Shown here: positions 1,073 to 24,193 of the stretch, piece after piece | How the letters are laid out: each line of letters opens with the position of its first letter | Position numbering within the stretch: the stretch's first letter is position 1 | IMG/VR virus record: IMGVR_UViG_3300005747_000220 | Coordinates: 1-24,193 of that record | Direction: 5' to 3' (one strand) | Origin: a virus | DNA length: 24,193 bases | Position numbers and translations under genes: made by a program | Notes under the pieces: generated by a model | Database searches by the model: none | What the model was told of the DNA's origin: nothing | The model's input: the letters and a program-made list of their open reading frames with translations, nothing else

Positions 1073-1263
1073 TTGCTTCTCCTTGTAATACCCATTCTAG
1101 TACGCACACCCTTCTTCTTGAGTTGTGCTTGCACTATTCTCATGCCTTTGTTAAAACTGCTTGAACTTCTAGTAAGACTGCGTCCACCGCCACGAGAATA
1201 ACGTGCTCCTGCTCTGTGTCCATCACAGTTTCCCTTGCATTGGCTTCTGTAATACGTTGCCAT
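1069..1263 (-). CDS. Small basic GNCxGHRAG protein, unknown function
   Basis: This 64-aa basic protein begins MATYYRSQCKGNCDGHRAG and then has an Arg/Gly/Ser-rich stretch (residues about 20-37) and a Lys/Arg-rich C-terminus. The CxxxC...H arrangement near the N-terminus (QCKGNCDGHRAG) could bind a metal, but two Cys plus one His is incomplete for a classical zinc finger. I recall similar short proteins with a GNCxGHxAG motif in marine phages without known function. It starts 2 nt after the portal stop codon and its stop overlaps the 28-aa gene, so it is part of the portal-scaffold operon. The upstream ribosome site is weak, suggesting coupling to portal translation. Confidence 0.75.
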   Translation of the reverse strand: MATYYRSQCKGNCDGHRAGARYSRGGGRSLTRSSSSFNKGMRIVQAQLKKKGVRTRMGITRRSK

Positions 1264-7718: not shown

Positions 7719-8056
7719 TATGCCGCTCTGTTTACGCACTTGAGTCTAAAGTTTCTTCTGTCAGTAACACCATTGCCAGTAACAACTTTGGCAGTAACAA
7801 TATAGGTTTTGTTTAGTTGTCCGCCACTGAGCTCAACATAGGTGTCAGTGTCATTGTCAGTGATGCCGCTTGATACTATCACTGGTGGTGTTGGATCATT
7901 TATTCTTGCAGCCACACTATAGTTTACAGTTGCAATAGTATCGCCACTGTCTAGCCATGTGCTCCAGTCAAAGGTGTATATCATCTGTGCTTCTACATCT
8001 TTGTCTATTTCTAATCCTTGATTGGTTTGAAAAAAACCTGCTCTGTTATTACTCAT
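7718..8056 (-). CDS. Conserved virion-associated protein, FDWSTWL type (112 aa)
   Basis: The protein has an all-beta, Ig-like look: YTFDWSTWLDSGDTIATVNY, then a PVIVSSGITDNDTDTYVELSG segment and ending with KTYIVTAKVVTGNGVTDRRNFRL. The YxFDWSxWL...GDTI pattern is one I recall from small phage proteins lying beside tail fibres; their function is not known to me. The stop of the 903-aa fibre gene overlaps its start (TAATG), so the two are translationally coupled, suggesting a stoichiometric partner such as a fibre decoration or connector. Confidence 0.7.
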   Translation of the reverse strand: MSNNRAGFFQTNQGLEIDKDVEAQMIYTFDWSTWLDSGDTIATVNYSVAARINDPTPPVIVSSGITDNDTDTYVELSGGQLNKTYIVTAKVVTGNGVTDRRNFRLKCVNRAA

Positions 8057-10767
8057 TATAGTTCTCCTAGTGTAAACTTTCTTGTTTCTTTGTGAATGGT
8101 GTGTGTTCTTGTTTCTTTGTTTATGCTAAACACTCTTGTTTCTTTTGGTACAATGTACACATATCTTGTGGTGTCAATTAGTGTGCCAATTGCAGTTTGT
8201 GTAAACGCACAAGATAGGCTGCTGCTTGCATCTGCCTGTACGCCCGCTGTACACGCTATGCTAGCGGTGTTTACAAGCCCTACTGTTGTTTGTTTAATTA
8301 TGCCAAAGTCTGCGCTTAGTGTAGCTTGTACGCTTGCTGTAGTGCTTGTGTCTGTTGTTTTAACAGCGTCTATGCTTGCAGTTGTTGTTGCTGCTAAGTC
8401 AATGTCACCTGCGAGACCTGCAACTGCTGTTATACTTGGGCTAAACACACCTGACAGTGTTGCACTGGCTTCAATATTCTTGATGCCTTGTGTTGTTTGT
8501 GTTGCTGTAACTGTTAAATCTGCACTTGTGGTTCTTGTTATTTCAACTGCACACACAATTGTTGCTGTTACACTGCCTGCAAATGTAGTTGTGCCCAAGA
8601 ACTTAACGCCAGTTGCAGTTGCACTAAATGCACTGTCTAAATCAGCAATCAGTCCTTCTGCGCGGATACCTGTGGCTGCTAGTGTTGCAGTTGTGCTTAG
8701 ATCAACAATTGAGCCTGCTACCAAATCACCATCTACAGTTGTTGTTGCAGTTGCATCTAAGTCGCTTGCGCCGCTGCGTATTCTATCAGCACTTGCAGTT
8801 ATTGTTGCTGTTGTGCTTAGACTTGCTGCACCACTTGCAGTTCTTACTACATCAACAGCCAGTGTAGCACGTGGTTCAATGTCAATAAAGAAGTCGCCTA
8901 TTCTACCTGCGGCAATCAGTGTTGAAACAAATGCATCTAAGTCACTTTGAAGTTGTTTGATGTTTAGAGCTTGTGCAGTTATACTTGCAACCGCACTAGG
9001 TGCAGCGTTTGCGCCTGCTGTTAGGTTAACAATTGCTGTCTGTGAGAATGCGCTGGCAATGCTACTTGCACCCTGTTGTATTCTAGTTGCAGTTGCAGTT
9101 GCACTAAATGCGCTAGAGATGTTACTTGCGCCTTGTTGTATTTTATCTGCGGTTGCAGTTGCACTAAATGCACCGGTTAAATCTGCGTCTATGTCAATTA
9201 TTTTATCAACGTCTACTGATATAGTTGCAGTAATAGTTAAATCTGCGTCTGCATCTAGTGTGTTGCCTGCAGATGCTGTAAGTGTAGCAGTTGAAGCAAG
9301 TGTTGCAGCAGCGTCTAATGTAAAATTAATTACATAATCATCTAGTGTTTGTTCAAACTGGTGATATAAAACTGCGGTATCAGTGTTAGGTGGATTTCTA
9401 ACTGGTCCTGAATCGTTTACTCTAAATGTTACTAAATCAAATCTTGGATATGGTCCAGCAGCATTTGAATTGCCTTCTGGATTGTACAGTGTAATTTGAC
9501 TTATGTCTGAATATAACTTGCCGTTGTAGGTTTCACTGCCAACTTCAATATTTCCGTAATAAAAGGTAAAATCATTGCCTACTCGTTGCAAAGTAAAGTT
9601 GTTTGCAATTTCAGTAAGACTGCCAACCTGAGCTGTAGTAGCAGTTATTGTTATATAACTACCGTTTTGTTTGCGTATTTTTACACTTGGTAATTCAACC
9701 GTATCACTTTGTCTTTCATAACCAAAGTTAATGGTGTTGTCCATACTAACATGTGTTGGAGTTCCGCTGATATCAACTACTGTGTTGAATCCTTCACCAG
9801 CACTAAGTATTGTGCTGTCTGCAATGGTTGTTGTTCCATCATTCTGTTTGTGATACACGTGAAGATAAAAATCATCTTTGTCGTCTTTATCAATACTGTC
9901 AAAAGTTGCTGCAAGTGCAACTGTTTCTGCGGTTACACTAGTTTCTTCTAATTCAATCATGTAATCTAGATAGTAACTACTACTAGTATTGCTTACATAA
10001 TTGTAAACTGTATTGTCAGTTTGCCAACGTGTAGCTGAAGGCCGTGCTGTGCTATAATTGTATGCAACAAAGTCATTTGGGCGTCCAAAATTTAAATTAC
10101 GCAATGAATCAGCAGTTAGTGTAAATGCACTGCTTAAAGTTTCATTTAGTTGTTTGATTATGCCAACATCTGCACTTAAACTTGCTGTGTTGTGCAAGTC
10201 TATGCTGCCATTCAAACTTGCTGTTGCAGTGATAGTTGGAGAGAACGTACCTGTTAAATCTGCACTCAGTTGTTTGATTATGCCAACATCTGCACTATGC
10301 CCAAAAGAAACCGCTAGTGAACTTGATGTGCTTCTTGTTCTACTAGCGGTTGAAGTAGCTGCGAATGCCGCAGCGAGTGCCATTGCATTGTCGCGGATCC
10401 TAGCTGCTTGTAGACTTAGGTTAACAATATTATTAAGAGTGACATCAGTTGAACGTGTTCGCACAAAGTTGGCATTGAATCCAGCTTGTGCAGCCATATC
10501 AATTGAGCCATTACGACTTGCAACTGCTAATATACTTGGCGTAAACACACCTGATAGACTTATATTAGCCTGTTGTAATCGTCCGGCAGTTGCAGTTGCA
10601 GTTGTGCTTACACTAAGAGTGGCAGTTGCTTCAAGTACAGCACCTTCTTCTTGGAAATAATTTGCAGTAATGTAGCCATCTTCAATATAAGGTTCATAGC
10701 GAATGTAACCTTCTTCAATGTAGTCTTCTACATAATAATAACCTAAATCGTCGCCTGTTCGTGCCAT
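8056..10767 (-). CDS. Large repetitive tail fibre protein (903 aa)
   Basis: This is a fibre-like receptor-binding candidate. The N-terminus carries acidic tyrosine repeats (VEDYIEEGYI, EPYIEDGYI; residues about 13-36). Most of the protein is a low-complexity Ala/Thr/Ser fibre made of 20-residue units such as ATATRIQQGASSIASAFS and VGIIKQLSADLTGTFSPT. A globular, aromatic-rich domain interrupts the fibre at about residues 225-460 (beta-rich, likely lectin- or ConA-like, from style only). The C-terminus is three 10-residue strands: IVPKETRVFS, INKETRTHTI and IHKETRKFTL, a terminal motif I associate with marine phage tail proteins. The ATG has an AAGGA site. The antisense strand shows long open frames because of the codon bias of the repeats. 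Confidence 0.78.
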   Translation of the reverse strand: MARTGDDLGYYYVEDYIEEGYIRYEPYIEDGYITANYFQEEGAVLEATATLSVSTTATATAGRLQQANISLSGVFTPSILAVASRNGSIDMAAQAGFNANFVRTRSTDVTLNNIVNLSLQAARIRDNAMALAAAFAATSTASRTRSTSSSLAVSFGHSADVGIIKQLSADLTGTFSPTITATASLNGSIDLHNTASLSADVGIIKQLNETLSSAFTLTADSLRNLNFGRPNDFVAYNYSTARPSATRWQTDNTVYNYVSNTSSSYYLDYMIELEETSVTAETVALAATFDSIDKDDKDDFYLHVYHKQNDGTTTIADSTILSAGEGFNTVVDISGTPTHVSMDNTINFGYERQSDTVELPSVKIRKQNGSYITITATTAQVGSLTEIANNFTLQRVGNDFTFYYGNIEVGSETYNGKLYSDISQITLYNPEGNSNAAGPYPRFDLVTFRVNDSGPVRNPPNTDTAVLYHQFEQTLDDYVINFTLDAAATLASTATLTASAGNTLDADADLTITATISVDVDKIIDIDADLTGAFSATATADKIQQGASNISSAFSATATATRIQQGASSIASAFSQTAIVNLTAGANAAPSAVASITAQALNIKQLQSDLDAFVSTLIAAGRIGDFFIDIEPRATLAVDVVRTASGAASLSTTATITASADRIRSGASDLDATATTTVDGDLVAGSIVDLSTTATLAATGIRAEGLIADLDSAFSATATGVKFLGTTTFAGSVTATIVCAVEITRTTSADLTVTATQTTQGIKNIEASATLSGVFSPSITAVAGLAGDIDLAATTTASIDAVKTTDTSTTASVQATLSADFGIIKQTTVGLVNTASIACTAGVQADASSSLSCAFTQTAIGTLIDTTRYVYIVPKETRVFSINKETRTHTIHKETRKFTLGEL
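9061..9180 (-). repeat. Two tandem 60-nt repeats in the fibre gene
   Basis: Positions 9061-9120 and 9121-9180 are near-identical 60-nt units encoding the 20-residue module (RIQQGASSIASAFSATAT and KIQQGASNISSAFSATAT). They share blocks such as TTGCAGTTGCACTAAATGC (plus strand). The high DNA identity points to recent duplication or ongoing unit exchange. Confidence 0.8.
10148..10296 (-). repeat. 29-nt exact repeat spaced by 120 nt in the fibre gene
   Basis: A 29-nt stretch at 10148-10176 recurs exactly at 10268-10296, a spacing of two 60-nt modules. It encodes SADVGIIKQL; a diverged version lies near 8290-8320. The repeat supports a 20-residue (60-nt) building unit over much of the gene. Confidence 0.75.
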
Positions 10768-18721: not shown

Positions 18722-21151
18722 TTATCTCCTTATTGGCACTTTGCGAGCGCCTTGTTGTGCAACTGCGTGTATAAAGCCAGGGTCTCTTGCAACCATTGAT
18801 TTAAAACTTGGGGCATCTACTGCATTGATATTGTAAACAACTTGTGTGCCGCTGCCTCCACCATTAAAGTTGCCCATTGGTGTAATGTTAGCTGGACCAC
18901 TTACGAGTTCTGGACCACGTTCTCCTACAACACCAAACTGTCCTGCAGGTATCATACCGCCGTTTGCAAAGAATCCAGCGAACGGACTTGAACCGCCTCC
19001 GCCTCCGCCAAAGGCACCAAACGTGCTTGCAATTAATCTTTGTATTTGGCTGCGCAATAATTCTTCAAGTATTGTGTTTACCAAATCTTTAAATTCAAAC
19101 TTGCCTGTCTTAGCAAAGCTTACAATAGCATCTTCCATGCTTTTTGTTGTTTTGTTAAACAGTCTTTCTGCTTGTTGTCCTGCGTTTGTAGCATTGTCAG
19201 CATAATCTTCATATGCTTTTTTCCAACCGTTTGCAAATGTTGATTGAGCTCGTTTAACACGTTCTTCTTCATCTTTTTCACGTTGTTTTCTTTGTTCTTG
19301 TATTTGTGAAATCTTTTGTTCATTTGCCTCAATACTTCTAGCTGATGCTTGTCTGCTTGTAATTGCTGTTTGAGTAGCTTTATCAATTTTTGCAAGTTGT
19401 TTTTCAATTTCATTTGCATCAAGACCTTCGCTTTGTGCTCTAAGTCGTGCTTTGGCTACATCAGCAAGGCGTATTTCTTGAAGTTCTATTGCTTTTAATT
19501 CGCGTTCTAATCCTTCTAATCCGCTTAGTGTTACACTTTCTTCACTTTGACGTATTCTTGCATTAATTGCATCAACTGCTGATTGTGTATCGTCTGTTAA
19601 ACCTTGTAATTTATTTGCTAATTCGTCTGCTTTGTTACTTGTGGTATCAAAACTATTAGTTAATGCATCCATTGCAAATGCATACGTGTCAACTGATATT
19701 TTGCCTTCAGATAGTTGTTCTTCTAAACGTGCTATTGCCAGTGCAGTAAATTCAACTTCTTCACTTGCATTATTAGCATTATCTATTATGCTGTTATAGA
19801 ATTTTTGAAAGCCTTCTTCTTCACCAAGTTCATTTGCTGCTTCTTTTAAACTTTGTACTTTTTCTCTTGAAGCAGTTAATTGATTTTCTGCGCCGCGCAA
19901 CAATTCAATAAAATTATCAACTTGTCCATTGCTTCTTTCAAATGCTAGATGTAATTGTTCAATTACAATTTCTGCATCTACAATTGCTTGATTGGCTTTT
20001 TCTAATTCAGTTCTGTAGTCTGTGTCTGCAAATTTTCTTGCTTGATCTATAAATTTTTGATGCGGTGCTAATATTGCATTTAAAGCATCTTCTTGTTTTT
20101 TAAGAGCTGCTGCTTCTGCTTCTGCTGCTTTTGCTGCTTCTTCATCTGCTGCAATACGTTTTTCTAATTCTACAACAAGTTCTTGAATTGCTGCTTTTTG
20201 ATCATTAATAATGGTGTTTGTAGTAACAAACCCTCTGCCGCCTGCTACTTGGCTTTTTACTAAATCGCCAAATTTAAAATTTAGTTCTTCAACAGCTTGT
20301 GCAGCACTTAAACTGCCTTCTGCAACCTTATCCATAATTTCACTAGGATCTAGATTAACTAATGCGCCTTCTGTTTCTCCAATTGCATCTGCTGTTCTTG
20401 TTAAACTTTTTAGTATAGTTTCATATGATCTAGTAATGCCACTTGCTTCGCCTATTTTAACAGCTACTCTATCAAATGCATCACTTAGTCCTTGTTCTAA
20501 TTGATCAATTGTAGGTCTTGTTTTATTAAACGCATCACTGAGAGCTTCTGAACTTTCAACCATATTAAAGAACGTTTCAGCAGTAAGTTCACCTGCTTGA
20601 CTCATTTGTCGTAGTTTGCCTACTGTGAGTCCGCTTTCTGTAGCCATAATAGCAAGAGCAGGTCCTAGTGCTTCAACAATTGAATTAAATTCATCGCCAC
20701 GCACTGTGCCTGACGCCATGGCTTGTCCAAATTGTCTAATAGCACCAGCAGCAGTTCCTGCATCAGCGCCTGATATAGCAAGTGCTTGTTGGAATTTGCC
20801 AGTAACACCTAATACTCTGTCTTGTTCAATGCCCAAATCAGCAGTTGCAAGTGTTAATTTTGTAAACAAGTCAACTGTATCACCAAAAGCAGCACGATTT
20901 GATATTGCTGCTTGTGTTAATTGACCTGTTAATTCTACTAATTCTTCTTGGCTGTCTGTAATTAACCTTAATTGGTTAGTATAGGTTTGCATTGTACGTG
21001 TAGAATCAACAATTGCTTTAGCAAAACCCGCAGCAGCTGCCGCAGCAGCCGCAAACCCTACTGTTTTTAATGTTGCACTTAATTTACCTAAGGCAGCTGT
21101 TGACCCTTTTGTGTCTACTTCTAATACATAACGATCTTTTATTGTTGCCAT
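18722..21151 (-). CDS. Tail tape measure protein (809 aa)
   Basis: This gene sets tail length. Residues about 29-48 are an Ala-rich hydrophobic helix (TVGFAAAAAAAAGFAKAIVD). A tape-measure N-terminal domain follows at about 56-210, with QLRLITDSQEELVELT, AISGADAGTAAGAIRQFGQAM, GTVRGDEFNSIVEALGPALA and LRQMSQAGELTAETFF. Long coiled-coil segments cover about 330-650. The C-terminus is Gly-rich with FANGGMIPAGQFGVVGERGPE and a FIHAVAQQGARKVPIRR tail. At about 0.15 nm per residue an 809-aa tape measure predicts a tail near 120 nm, so a siphovirus with a long non-contractile tail (no sheath gene seen). The start has an AAGGG site. Confidence 0.93.
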   Translation of the reverse strand: MATIKDRYVLEVDTKGSTAALGKLSATLKTVGFAAAAAAAAGFAKAIVDSTRTMQTYTNQLRLITDSQEELVELTGQLTQAAISNRAAFGDTVDLFTKLTLATADLGIEQDRVLGVTGKFQQALAISGADAGTAAGAIRQFGQAMASGTVRGDEFNSIVEALGPALAIMATESGLTVGKLRQMSQAGELTAETFFNMVESSEALSDAFNKTRPTIDQLEQGLSDAFDRVAVKIGEASGITRSYETILKSLTRTADAIGETEGALVNLDPSEIMDKVAEGSLSAAQAVEELNFKFGDLVKSQVAGGRGFVTTNTIINDQKAAIQELVVELEKRIAADEEAAKAAEAEAAALKKQEDALNAILAPHQKFIDQARKFADTDYRTELEKANQAIVDAEIVIEQLHLAFERSNGQVDNFIELLRGAENQLTASREKVQSLKEAANELGEEEGFQKFYNSIIDNANNASEEVEFTALAIARLEEQLSEGKISVDTYAFAMDALTNSFDTTSNKADELANKLQGLTDDTQSAVDAINARIRQSEESVTLSGLEGLERELKAIELQEIRLADVAKARLRAQSEGLDANEIEKQLAKIDKATQTAITSRQASARSIEANEQKISQIQEQRKQREKDEEERVKRAQSTFANGWKKAYEDYADNATNAGQQAERLFNKTTKSMEDAIVSFAKTGKFEFKDLVNTILEELLRSQIQRLIASTFGAFGGGGGGSSPFAGFFANGGMIPAGQFGVVGERGPELVSGPANITPMGNFNGGGSGTQVVYNINAVDAPSFKSMVARDPGFIHAVAQQGARKVPIRR

Positions 21152-21161
21152 CTTTGTGCCC

Positions 21162-21428
21162 TTATATCTTTCTAATTAAACTTCTAATAAATTTAATAGT
21201 ATTATCTGTCATGCCCTGAGGTGCTTGACGACTGTATCCGCTGTTTAATCTATTAGCATAATTATAATTTGCTTGTATTTCATTACCCAACAGTTTAGTT
21301 TGTTTTCTTGCGTTGCCCTTATCTATGGGTGTAAGTTCTCTAAATTTATCAGATGCAGATTTAGTAATCTTTGGTAATTCTTTTTCAATTTCTTTTAATC
21401 TACGATTAATATTTCTTGTTTGTTTCAT
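21162..21428 (-). CDS. HK97 gp10-like tail/neck protein (88 aa)
   Basis: The ATG at 21428 overlaps the stop of the chaperone GT product (TAATG). The short protein has an N-terminal helix (RNINRRLKEIEKELPKITK), a core TPIDKGNARKQT turn where gp10-like proteins usually have TPVDTGxLR, then an ANYNYANRLNSGYSRQAPQGM segment and FIRSLIRKI. This matches the gp10-like fold, normally found at the head-tail joint, in order of motifs. Here it is unusually placed between tail chaperones and tape measure, so a modified role in tail assembly is possible. Homology is judged by style only. Confidence 0.65.
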   Translation of the reverse strand: MKQTRNINRRLKEIEKELPKITKSASDKFRELTPIDKGNARKQTKLLGNEIQANYNYANRLNSGYSRQAPQGMTDNTIKFIRSLIRKI

Positions 21429-21984
21429 TAATTACCTTTAACTGCATCCATCATAGCTTGCAACTCGTCTGTAGTATGTTCTGTTTGTGTATGTCCTTCA
21501 CTATTATCATTTACTTTTTTATTTAAGTAATTTTCATATTGCAAAGACAATATAGCACATTTTACATCAATTGAATTGCCCAGCTCCAAAACTTGACTTG
21601 GTAACGTTGCATATCTTTTTGCTACCATGTCAAGCGTTATCCAAGCATTTATTTCTCCGCTGGGATTTCTGAAGTCTGGGCTATCATGTTTCCCAATTTT
21701 GTTATACTTTCTTCAATAACTGCCATCATAATATCTGGTGGCAATTGTTTGCTTCCTGTTAATAATAAATTACCTTTTTTATCTCTTACTAATTTTCTAG
21801 TTACAATTGCAGCTTCAACTATTCCAGCTTCGCCTGACATTTTTGACAATGCCATATATGTTTCCATATCTTGTCTGTCGTGAATATAGAATACGATATC
21901 TTCACCGTGTTTTTCTACAATTTCAGGTTTGGTAATTTTAAGTTCAACAAGCTGCGGTTCGCTTATTAATTGTTCTAAGTTCAT
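21428..21984 (-). CDS. Tail assembly chaperone GT fusion, made by -1 frameshift (185 aa predicted)
   Basis: Ribosomes reading the 111-aa chaperone gene can slip back one base at GGGAAAC (21694-21688) and continue in the -1 frame, which is open from about 21712 to the stop at 21428. The joined product has about 99 codons of G plus 86 of T. The post-shift sequence INAWITLDMVAKRYATLPSQ (about residues 116-135 of the product) is a well-formed helical T-domain and begins upstream of the only ATG (21628), which supports a frameshift rather than an internal start. This parallels lambda gpG/gpGT, where the ratio of the two proteins controls tube assembly around the tape measure, whose gene lies just downstream. 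Confidence 0.8.
21649..21984 (-). CDS. Tail assembly chaperone G (111 aa)
   Basis: This is the product of normal termination. It begins MNLEQLISEPQLVELKITKP, with a beta-rich middle (EDIVFYIHDRQDME), the helix SKMSGEAGIVEAAIVTRKLVRD and a C-terminal helix MAVIEESITKLGNMIAQTS. Position between the major tail protein and tape measure and the internal slippery site identify it. It starts with an AGGAGATTAAGAGAATG site that overlaps the stop of the preceding 58-aa gene. In lambda the G form is far more abundant than GT; the same is expected here. Confidence 0.82.
   Translation of the reverse strand: MNLEQLISEPQLVELKITKPEIVEKHGEDIVFYIHDRQDMETYMALSKMSGEAGIVEAAIVTRKLVRDKKGNLLLTGSKQLPPDIMMAVIEESITKLGNMIAQTSEIPAEK
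21688..21694 (-). promoter_or_regulatory. Programmed -1 frameshift site GGGAAAC
   Basis: In frame the codons read TTG GGA AAC, giving a heptamer G GGA AAC of the X XXY YYZ type; after slipping it is read GGG AAA. It lies 12 codons before the end of the G frame, the usual distance. The lambda site is GGGAAAG. A downstream stimulating stem-loop or pseudoknot was not identified. Confidence 0.8.
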
Positions 21985-22253: not shown

Positions 22254-22733
22254 TTAAGATACTGTGTAATCACCGTCTACTGTAATAGTAATTGGTGATA
22301 CCCAAACTGGGCTGTCTGCACTTACAGTTGGAGCCAATCCTGTGATGTAGCCCTCTCCTGATATAGTTTTACCTTCGCTGCCATCTGATGTGTCACCAAA
22401 GTATAGTTCAAAGTCAAGTAAATCTTTTGCTTTTGATAGTTCAAAGATTCCCTTGAAGTCTGCTTCGCCTGCGACTGCGGTTGAGTCGCCAAAGAATACA
22501 GTTTGGTCAAGTACGATGTTCATTGTCAGTGAGTTGGTAGCAGTAGTTGCAATTTGCAATTTACTAGCTTGGTCCAACTGTGTCCAAGTAAACACGTCAT
22601 TGGCTGCGTTAACTGTAACGTCCTGGAGTGCAGGTACTGTTAGTTCTGGGGTAGCTGCTGAGTTTGCTGCGACACTAATTTTTAGTGAAGATTGCTTTGC
22701 TGCCACACCCGGTGCTGGATATATATAAGCCAT
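22254..22733 (-). CDS. Major tail (tube) protein
   Basis: The 159-aa protein has the size and all-beta look of a siphovirus tube protein: AYIYPAPGVAAKQSSLKISV, TVNAANDVFTWTQLDQASK, NSLTMNIVLDQTVFFGDS, and the closing strand VSPITITVDGDYTVS. It is followed by a terminator hairpin and lies between tail terminator and chaperone genes, in the order capsid, connector, terminator, tube, chaperones, tape measure that is standard for siphophages. The start ATG at 22733 has a GGAAACC site. Confidence 0.85.
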   Translation of the reverse strand: MAYIYPAPGVAAKQSSLKISVAANSAATPELTVPALQDVTVNAANDVFTWTQLDQASKLQIATTATNSLTMNIVLDQTVFFGDSTAVAGEADFKGIFELSKAKDLLDFELYFGDTSDGSEGKTISGEGYITGLAPTVSADSPVWVSPITITVDGDYTVS

Positions 22734-23658: not shown

Positions 23659-24193
23659 TTATGCTACATTAATTAACTGAATGCCACGTGCTGCATCAAC
23701 AACACCAACACCAGCATGAATGCTTGCAACAACATCGTTACCTACGGCTGCTGCTCTACGCTGTACTTCAATGTCTGCATTCTTTTGCATTGCAATTCTG
23801 CAAGAATCAACACCAAAGATAAAGCCACTGTGTGCAGCTGGAACTAGTGCAGATTGGAACATTTGTACGCCAGCATATGTGCCAACATAACCGTTGCGTA
23901 GTGCTTCAGTTTGGAAGTCGCCGCCGCTAAAGTTACCGTTAGCAAACAGGTTCTTCATAAGGTTTGAAGCTTCTGAAGTTGATAGGATACCAAAAAGTTG
24001 ACCCATTTCGCCAGCGCCACGGATTTGTGCTACTGCGTCAAAGATTGAATCACCTGTCATTGGTACAGAGTCTGTAGTAGACGCTGTTAAGTTAGTTGCC
24101 ATAGCTGTTAACACTGCTGTGTCAAATGCTTTTGCAACTGCGTTACCAAGTACACGACCCAATTCGTTTGGATCAATACCACCTAAGTCACGT
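23659..24193 (-). CDS. Major capsid protein, C-terminal part (cut by window edge)
   Basis: The frame is open to the right edge (178 codons plus the last base of another); any start inside the fragment (for instance the TTG at 24162) is artificial. It reads RDLGGIDPNELGRVLGNAVAKAF, then MTGDSIFDAVAQIRG, GILSTSEASNLMKNLFANGN, TYAGVQMFQSALVPAAHSGF and GVVDAARGIQLINVA. The pattern of a mid-domain helix, GILSTSEA-type strand and C-terminal FGVDSCRIAMQ...DVVASIHAGVGV matches HK97-type capsid proteins of marine phages. It is followed by the connector gene. The start of a capsid gene is at the left edge (193-1), but joining directly gives a frame error, so at least one base (modulo 3), and from family length probably a few tens of codons, are missing between. 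Confidence 0.88.
   Translation of the reverse strand, partial: RDLGGIDPNELGRVLGNAVAKAFDTAVLTAMATNLTASTTDSVPMTGDSIFDAVAQIRGAGEMGQLFGILSTSEASNLMKNLFANGNFSGGDFQTEALRNGYVGTYAGVQMFQSALVPAAHSGFIFGVDSCRIAMQKNADIEVQRRAAAVGNDVVASIHAGVGVVDAARGIQLINVA

Follow-up and report, generated by a model that had tools for sequence, protein, structure and literature searches.

Programmed −1 ribosomal frameshifting in tail assembly chaperone genes is long known and widespread among tailed phages; what is new here is a sequence family without a name in the databases searched. The G part of phage lambda interacts with the tape measure protein, the T part with the tail tube protein, and about 30 G are made for every GT (PMC5009743). 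The haloarchaeal viruses HCTV-1 and HCTV-5 have the heptamers G_GGA_AAC and G_GGA_AAG as their g-t shift sites, G_GGA_AAG is also shift-prone in E. coli, and Shine-Dalgarno (SD)-like stimulators of −1 frameshifting have been reported 9-14 nt upstream of the heptamer (PMC5009743). A further motif, GGGGGAA or “fivetwo”, has been recorded in the chaperones of actinobacteriophages, where its rationale is the G:U re-pairing of Glu tRNA (PMC10885494).

The window analysed here, a stretch of 24,193 nucleotides of viral DNA, almost certainly encodes a tail assembly chaperone in two forms, the longer of which arises by programmed −1 ribosomal frameshifting; we infer the slippage, its rate and the chaperone roles. 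A −1 shift joining two tail chaperone frames had been proposed in the first-pass annotation of the sequence and is now supported by 170 distinct junctions in relatives, by loss of the second frame's ATG, by the gene neighbourhood and by a fold match. The features to which we refer are the following.

21649..21984, minus strand: 0-frame ORF of 111 aa, putative gpG-like tail assembly chaperone (homologues in 251 loci and a Foldseek match)
21688..21694, minus strand: predicted slippery heptamer G_GGA_AAC, in phase (GGGAAAN at 165/170 junctions, GGGGGAR at 5/170)
21428..21688, minus strand: T-like segment of the −1 frame, 86 aa after the shift plus the stop (conserved T domain, always in the −1 register)
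21428..21628, minus strand: 66-aa ORF beginning at an ATG within the −1 frame, most likely no separate gene (ATG not conserved)
21707..21715, minus strand: region of the SD-like stimulator of relatives, with a degenerate copy in the window (GAAGAAAG; family enrichment over a synonymous null)
21162..21428, minus strand: 88-aa ORF that overlaps the stop of the −1 frame (TAATG), between chaperone and tape measure (phrog_169 match)
18722..21151, minus strand: tail tape measure protein, 809 aa (PF20155, E 9e-46; PF09718, E 2e-21; phrog_339, E 3e-65)
22254..22733, minus strand: 159-aa ORF, probable major tail (tube) protein (position and gene order)

The arrangement resembles that of lambda gpG/gpGT: a small gene ahead of the tape measure gene has a −1 shift site close to its 3′ end, the slippery sequence is of the form G_GGA_AAN, and a short and a long product would result, both predicted here from sequence. 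It differs in that no sequence similarity to lambda was detected and in the presence of an extra gene of ~95 aa before the tape measure. The earlier description of the locus as lambda G/GT-like is therefore apt for mechanism and position but does not extend to sequence homology with lambda G or T, which was not detected.

The in-frame codons at the heptamer (minus strand, 21694..21688) are TTG GGA AAC, followed by 12 sense codons and the TAA that ends the 111-aa ORF, in agreement with the in-frame GGGAAAC first placed 12 codons ahead of that stop. The −1 frame is open from just after a TGA at 21715..21713, ending 18 nt ahead of the heptamer, to its stop at 21430..21428, and so runs through the whole 66-aa frame as originally described; the 0-frame part and the −1 segment together give a computed fusion of 185 aa, the approximate length that had been predicted. 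Most ribosomes would keep to the 0 frame and terminate at 21649, releasing a 111-aa G-like protein, while a minority would slip back by one base on G_GGA_AAC, with tRNA-Gly moving from GGA to GGG and tRNA-Asn from AAC to AAA, and would then read on to 21428 to give a 185-aa GT-like fusion. By analogy with lambda, coating of the tape measure protein would fall to the G part and recruitment of tail tube subunits to the T part. One detail of the earlier proposal needs correction: the junction had been written GK|HDSPDFR, whereas tandem slippage after decoding of AAC should give ...KLGN|HDSPDFR; a K at this place would require the shift to occur before AAC is decoded.

The heptamer by itself is not unusual, since GGGAAAC occurs three times in the window against an expectation of 1.56. 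A second in-phase copy lies at 1234..1228, within a 64-aa ORF at 1069-1263, and looks like a chance occurrence because its −1 frame stops after one codon.

Scans of virus contigs yielded 254 sequences, the window among them; both frames are present in 251, and removal of identical junctions reduced these 251 loci to 170 distinct junctions. The second frame is in the −1 register in all 251. With any metagenomic contig one might suspect that a single gene has been broken by faulty sequencing or assembly, but 251/251 relatives, from many independent assemblies, have this −1 break at one shared alignment position, together with a slippery site, and we regard such an error as vanishingly improbable. 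Conservation of the heptamer in relatives had been suggested as a check on the proposal, and an in-phase GGGAAAN is found at 165 of the 170 distinct junctions (last base G in 75, C in 72, A in 15 and T in 3). Relatives that keep both frames and lack any slippery site were sought as the refuting case; the sole exceptions to GGGAAAN, at the remaining five junctions, have GGGGGAG (L002, L172 and L175) or GGGGGAA (L230/L231) at the same place, a motif type already recorded in chaperones.

On a tree of the 165 distinct fusions the site type has to change three times, from which we infer that GGGGGAR arose independently in the lineages of L002, of L172/L175 and of L230. The non-canonical site of these exceptional relatives is of the type found in the actinobacteriophage GGGGGAA “fivetwo” chaperones (PRFect, PMC10885494); unlike those, the window has a canonical GGGAAAC, and the GGGGGAG of some relatives has a final G in place of the A of the recorded motif. 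Codon choice for the same peptides elsewhere provides a control: in the long ORFs of the same loci, Leu-Gly-Lys/Asn is never encoded with GGGAAA (0/169) and Leu-Gly-Glu elsewhere in these loci is never encoded with GGGGGA (0/82), and the equivalent same-tripeptide control on an earlier set of sequences gave 0/116. Judged from these comparisons, it is the conservation in relatives, rather than the occurrence of the heptamer in the window, that is beyond chance.

The first-pass annotation had also held that calling a separate 66-aa gene is wrong. This is borne out in that the ATG is not conserved and the residues before it are, with the qualification that the “gene” was merely an ORF drawn from the first ATG. 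At the position of this ATG, L003 and L005 have a TTG, and many other relatives have a Phe codon; among the 165 distinct fusions, the opening 24 codons of the −1 frame are free of ATG in 72 and of ATG, GTG and TTG alike in 32. The conserved PDF...NAW.TLD residues are encoded ahead of the ATG, partly within the overlap with the 0 frame and partly after the 0-frame stop, and conservation of NAW.TLD agrees with the earlier statement that the −1 frame already encodes a domain upstream of this codon. An independent start of the 66-aa ORF was rejected, as its start codon is not conserved.

These observations bear on whether the locus instead comprises two separate, translationally coupled genes, the 66-aa gene being translated by reinitiation at the ATG (21628) and the heptamer being coincidental. 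The ATG of the window does lie ~20 nt past the 0-frame stop, and SD-like sequences inside a gene close to its end can function in coupling. Against this stand the heptamer or its substitute in phase at 170/170 junctions, the lack of conservation of the ATG, and the conserved −1 residues that precede it, some of them inside the 0-frame overlap. The SD-like element, moreover, lies most often 13 nt before the heptamer in relatives whose stops follow at varying distances, and it therefore tracks the heptamer and not a start codon. We consider two coupled genes highly unlikely and retain programmed frameshifting as the explanation.

The SD-like element is itself a feature of the family. Complementarity to the anti-Shine-Dalgarno sequence, measured against a synonymous-codon null, is clearly higher only just upstream of the heptamer (−32..−3) and is mostly neutral or avoided further upstream. 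The last two intervals before the heptamer give z values of −5.9 and −9.1, the size of which is overstated by a null that counts related sequences as independent, although this does not explain the positional contrast. The commonest spacing from the SD-like word (in L005, for example, GAGGAG) to the heptamer in the family is 13 nt, which falls inside the reported range of 9-14 nt, and the shift appears to be helped by an internal SD-like element in much of the family. E. coli dnaX likewise has an SD-like stimulator 9-14 nt upstream of its −1 heptamer, as is seen across the family of the window, but combines it with A_AAA_AAG and a downstream hairpin, whereas the window has a weak SD-like element (GAAGAAAG, −1.0 kcal/mol) and no supported hairpin.

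The same element bears on the possibility that the fusion is made by transcriptional rather than ribosomal slippage, which deserves mention since slippage of the polymerase on homopolymers can yield frame transitions (PMC3711429). Codon phase is, however, strictly kept across the junctions, and the upstream SD-like element is enriched at the spacing of a ribosomal stimulator. The runs in GGGAAAN are, besides, only three bases long, too short for typical polymerase slippage. We give slippage at the level of transcription very little credence, and ribosomal frameshifting remains the reading followed here.

Downstream of the heptamer, the 88 nt of the window folded no better than shuffled sequences (z 0.05), and an Rfam search gave no match. 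Across the family, stability over the first 65 nt downstream slightly exceeds that of controls (mean z −1.1 versus −0.2 to −0.7). A downstream pairing of the GCCAG/UUGG type was considered and dropped, as there was no clear covariation in the subgroups of the window. An 8-10 bp hairpin ~7 nt downstream is possible in a subset of relatives whose 0-frame stop directly follows the heptamer (L064, L066, L067, L070, L073, L081 and L097), and is not general to the whole stop-after-heptamer group. The efficiency of the shift in the window is probably modest, because its copy of the SD-like element is weak and there is no recognisable downstream RNA structure.

Neither the G nor the T domain has a match in Pfam, and none in PHROGs was convincing. 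A hit to a named chaperone family would be supporting evidence and not a defining trait, given how diverse these families are. Structure models of moderate confidence (pLDDT 69-71, with 69 for the G domain) were used for fold comparison. With Foldseek, the top viral match to the predicted G domain is a named tail assembly chaperone, A0A6J5LPC3 (TM 0.80, E 1.3e-6), and another match is A0A6J7WLS6 (TM 0.70); both proteins come from uncultured Caudovirales phages, share 23-24% identity with the G domain and probably belong to the same family. Among solved structures, VIA-align places the HK97 chaperone 2ob9 first, albeit weakly (Z 4.1, rmsd 4.6 over 89 residues, ~3% identity), and 3klu is also a weak match; the resemblance of the G domain to 2ob9 and related proteins of the TAC fold is too weak on its own to prove homology. 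The putative link to the chaperone family draws on fold together with synteny.

No relatives of the chaperone were found in cultured phages by tblastn, and none was confirmed among GTDB genome contigs. On balance we favour the view that the locus belongs to a large tail chaperone family that has no name in Pfam or PHROGs and is represented here only by uncultured phages, in which an internal SD-like element (most often at 13 nt) helps the shift and the site has changed on at least three occasions between GGGAAAN and GGGGGAR, with slipperiness kept each time. On a practical level, gene calls can be corrected across a phage family, the T frame being annotated as a frameshift extension and not as a separate gene. 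The 170 distinct slippery junctions also supply a naturally varied set, and the fact that one homologous site has repeatedly changed between GGGAAAN and GGGGGAR, together with the upstream SD-like element, would allow a clean comparative test of the requirements of bacterial −1 sites.

The gene order around the chaperone is likewise shared. A gene of ~95 aa followed by a long ORF is found in this order in nearly all of the 60 relatives checked, and the long ORF downstream is present in 60/60, its identity as a tape measure having been established by family search in the window only. Lambda has no gene between chaperone and tape measure. The intervening 88-aa ORF of the window weakly resembles tail-completion/Neck1 proteins (phrog_169, E 3e-9, residues 51-87 only). 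Upstream, the 159-aa ORF has no family match in Pfam or PHROGs and is, from gene order, probably the major tail (tube) protein.

Two observations concern the remainder of the window. At 8056-10767 there is a 903-aa ORF made of repeated short motifs (“SAFSATATA”-like), with long antisense ORFs as a by-product, which is possibly a repetitive fibre or adhesin-like protein. The two ends of the window, at 1-226 and 23659-24193, lie in what seem to be opposite ends of a single capsid gene on the minus strand, not joined in frame; for this reason the contig probably represents a circularly permuted genome of ~24 kb that is nearly complete and lacks a short stretch.
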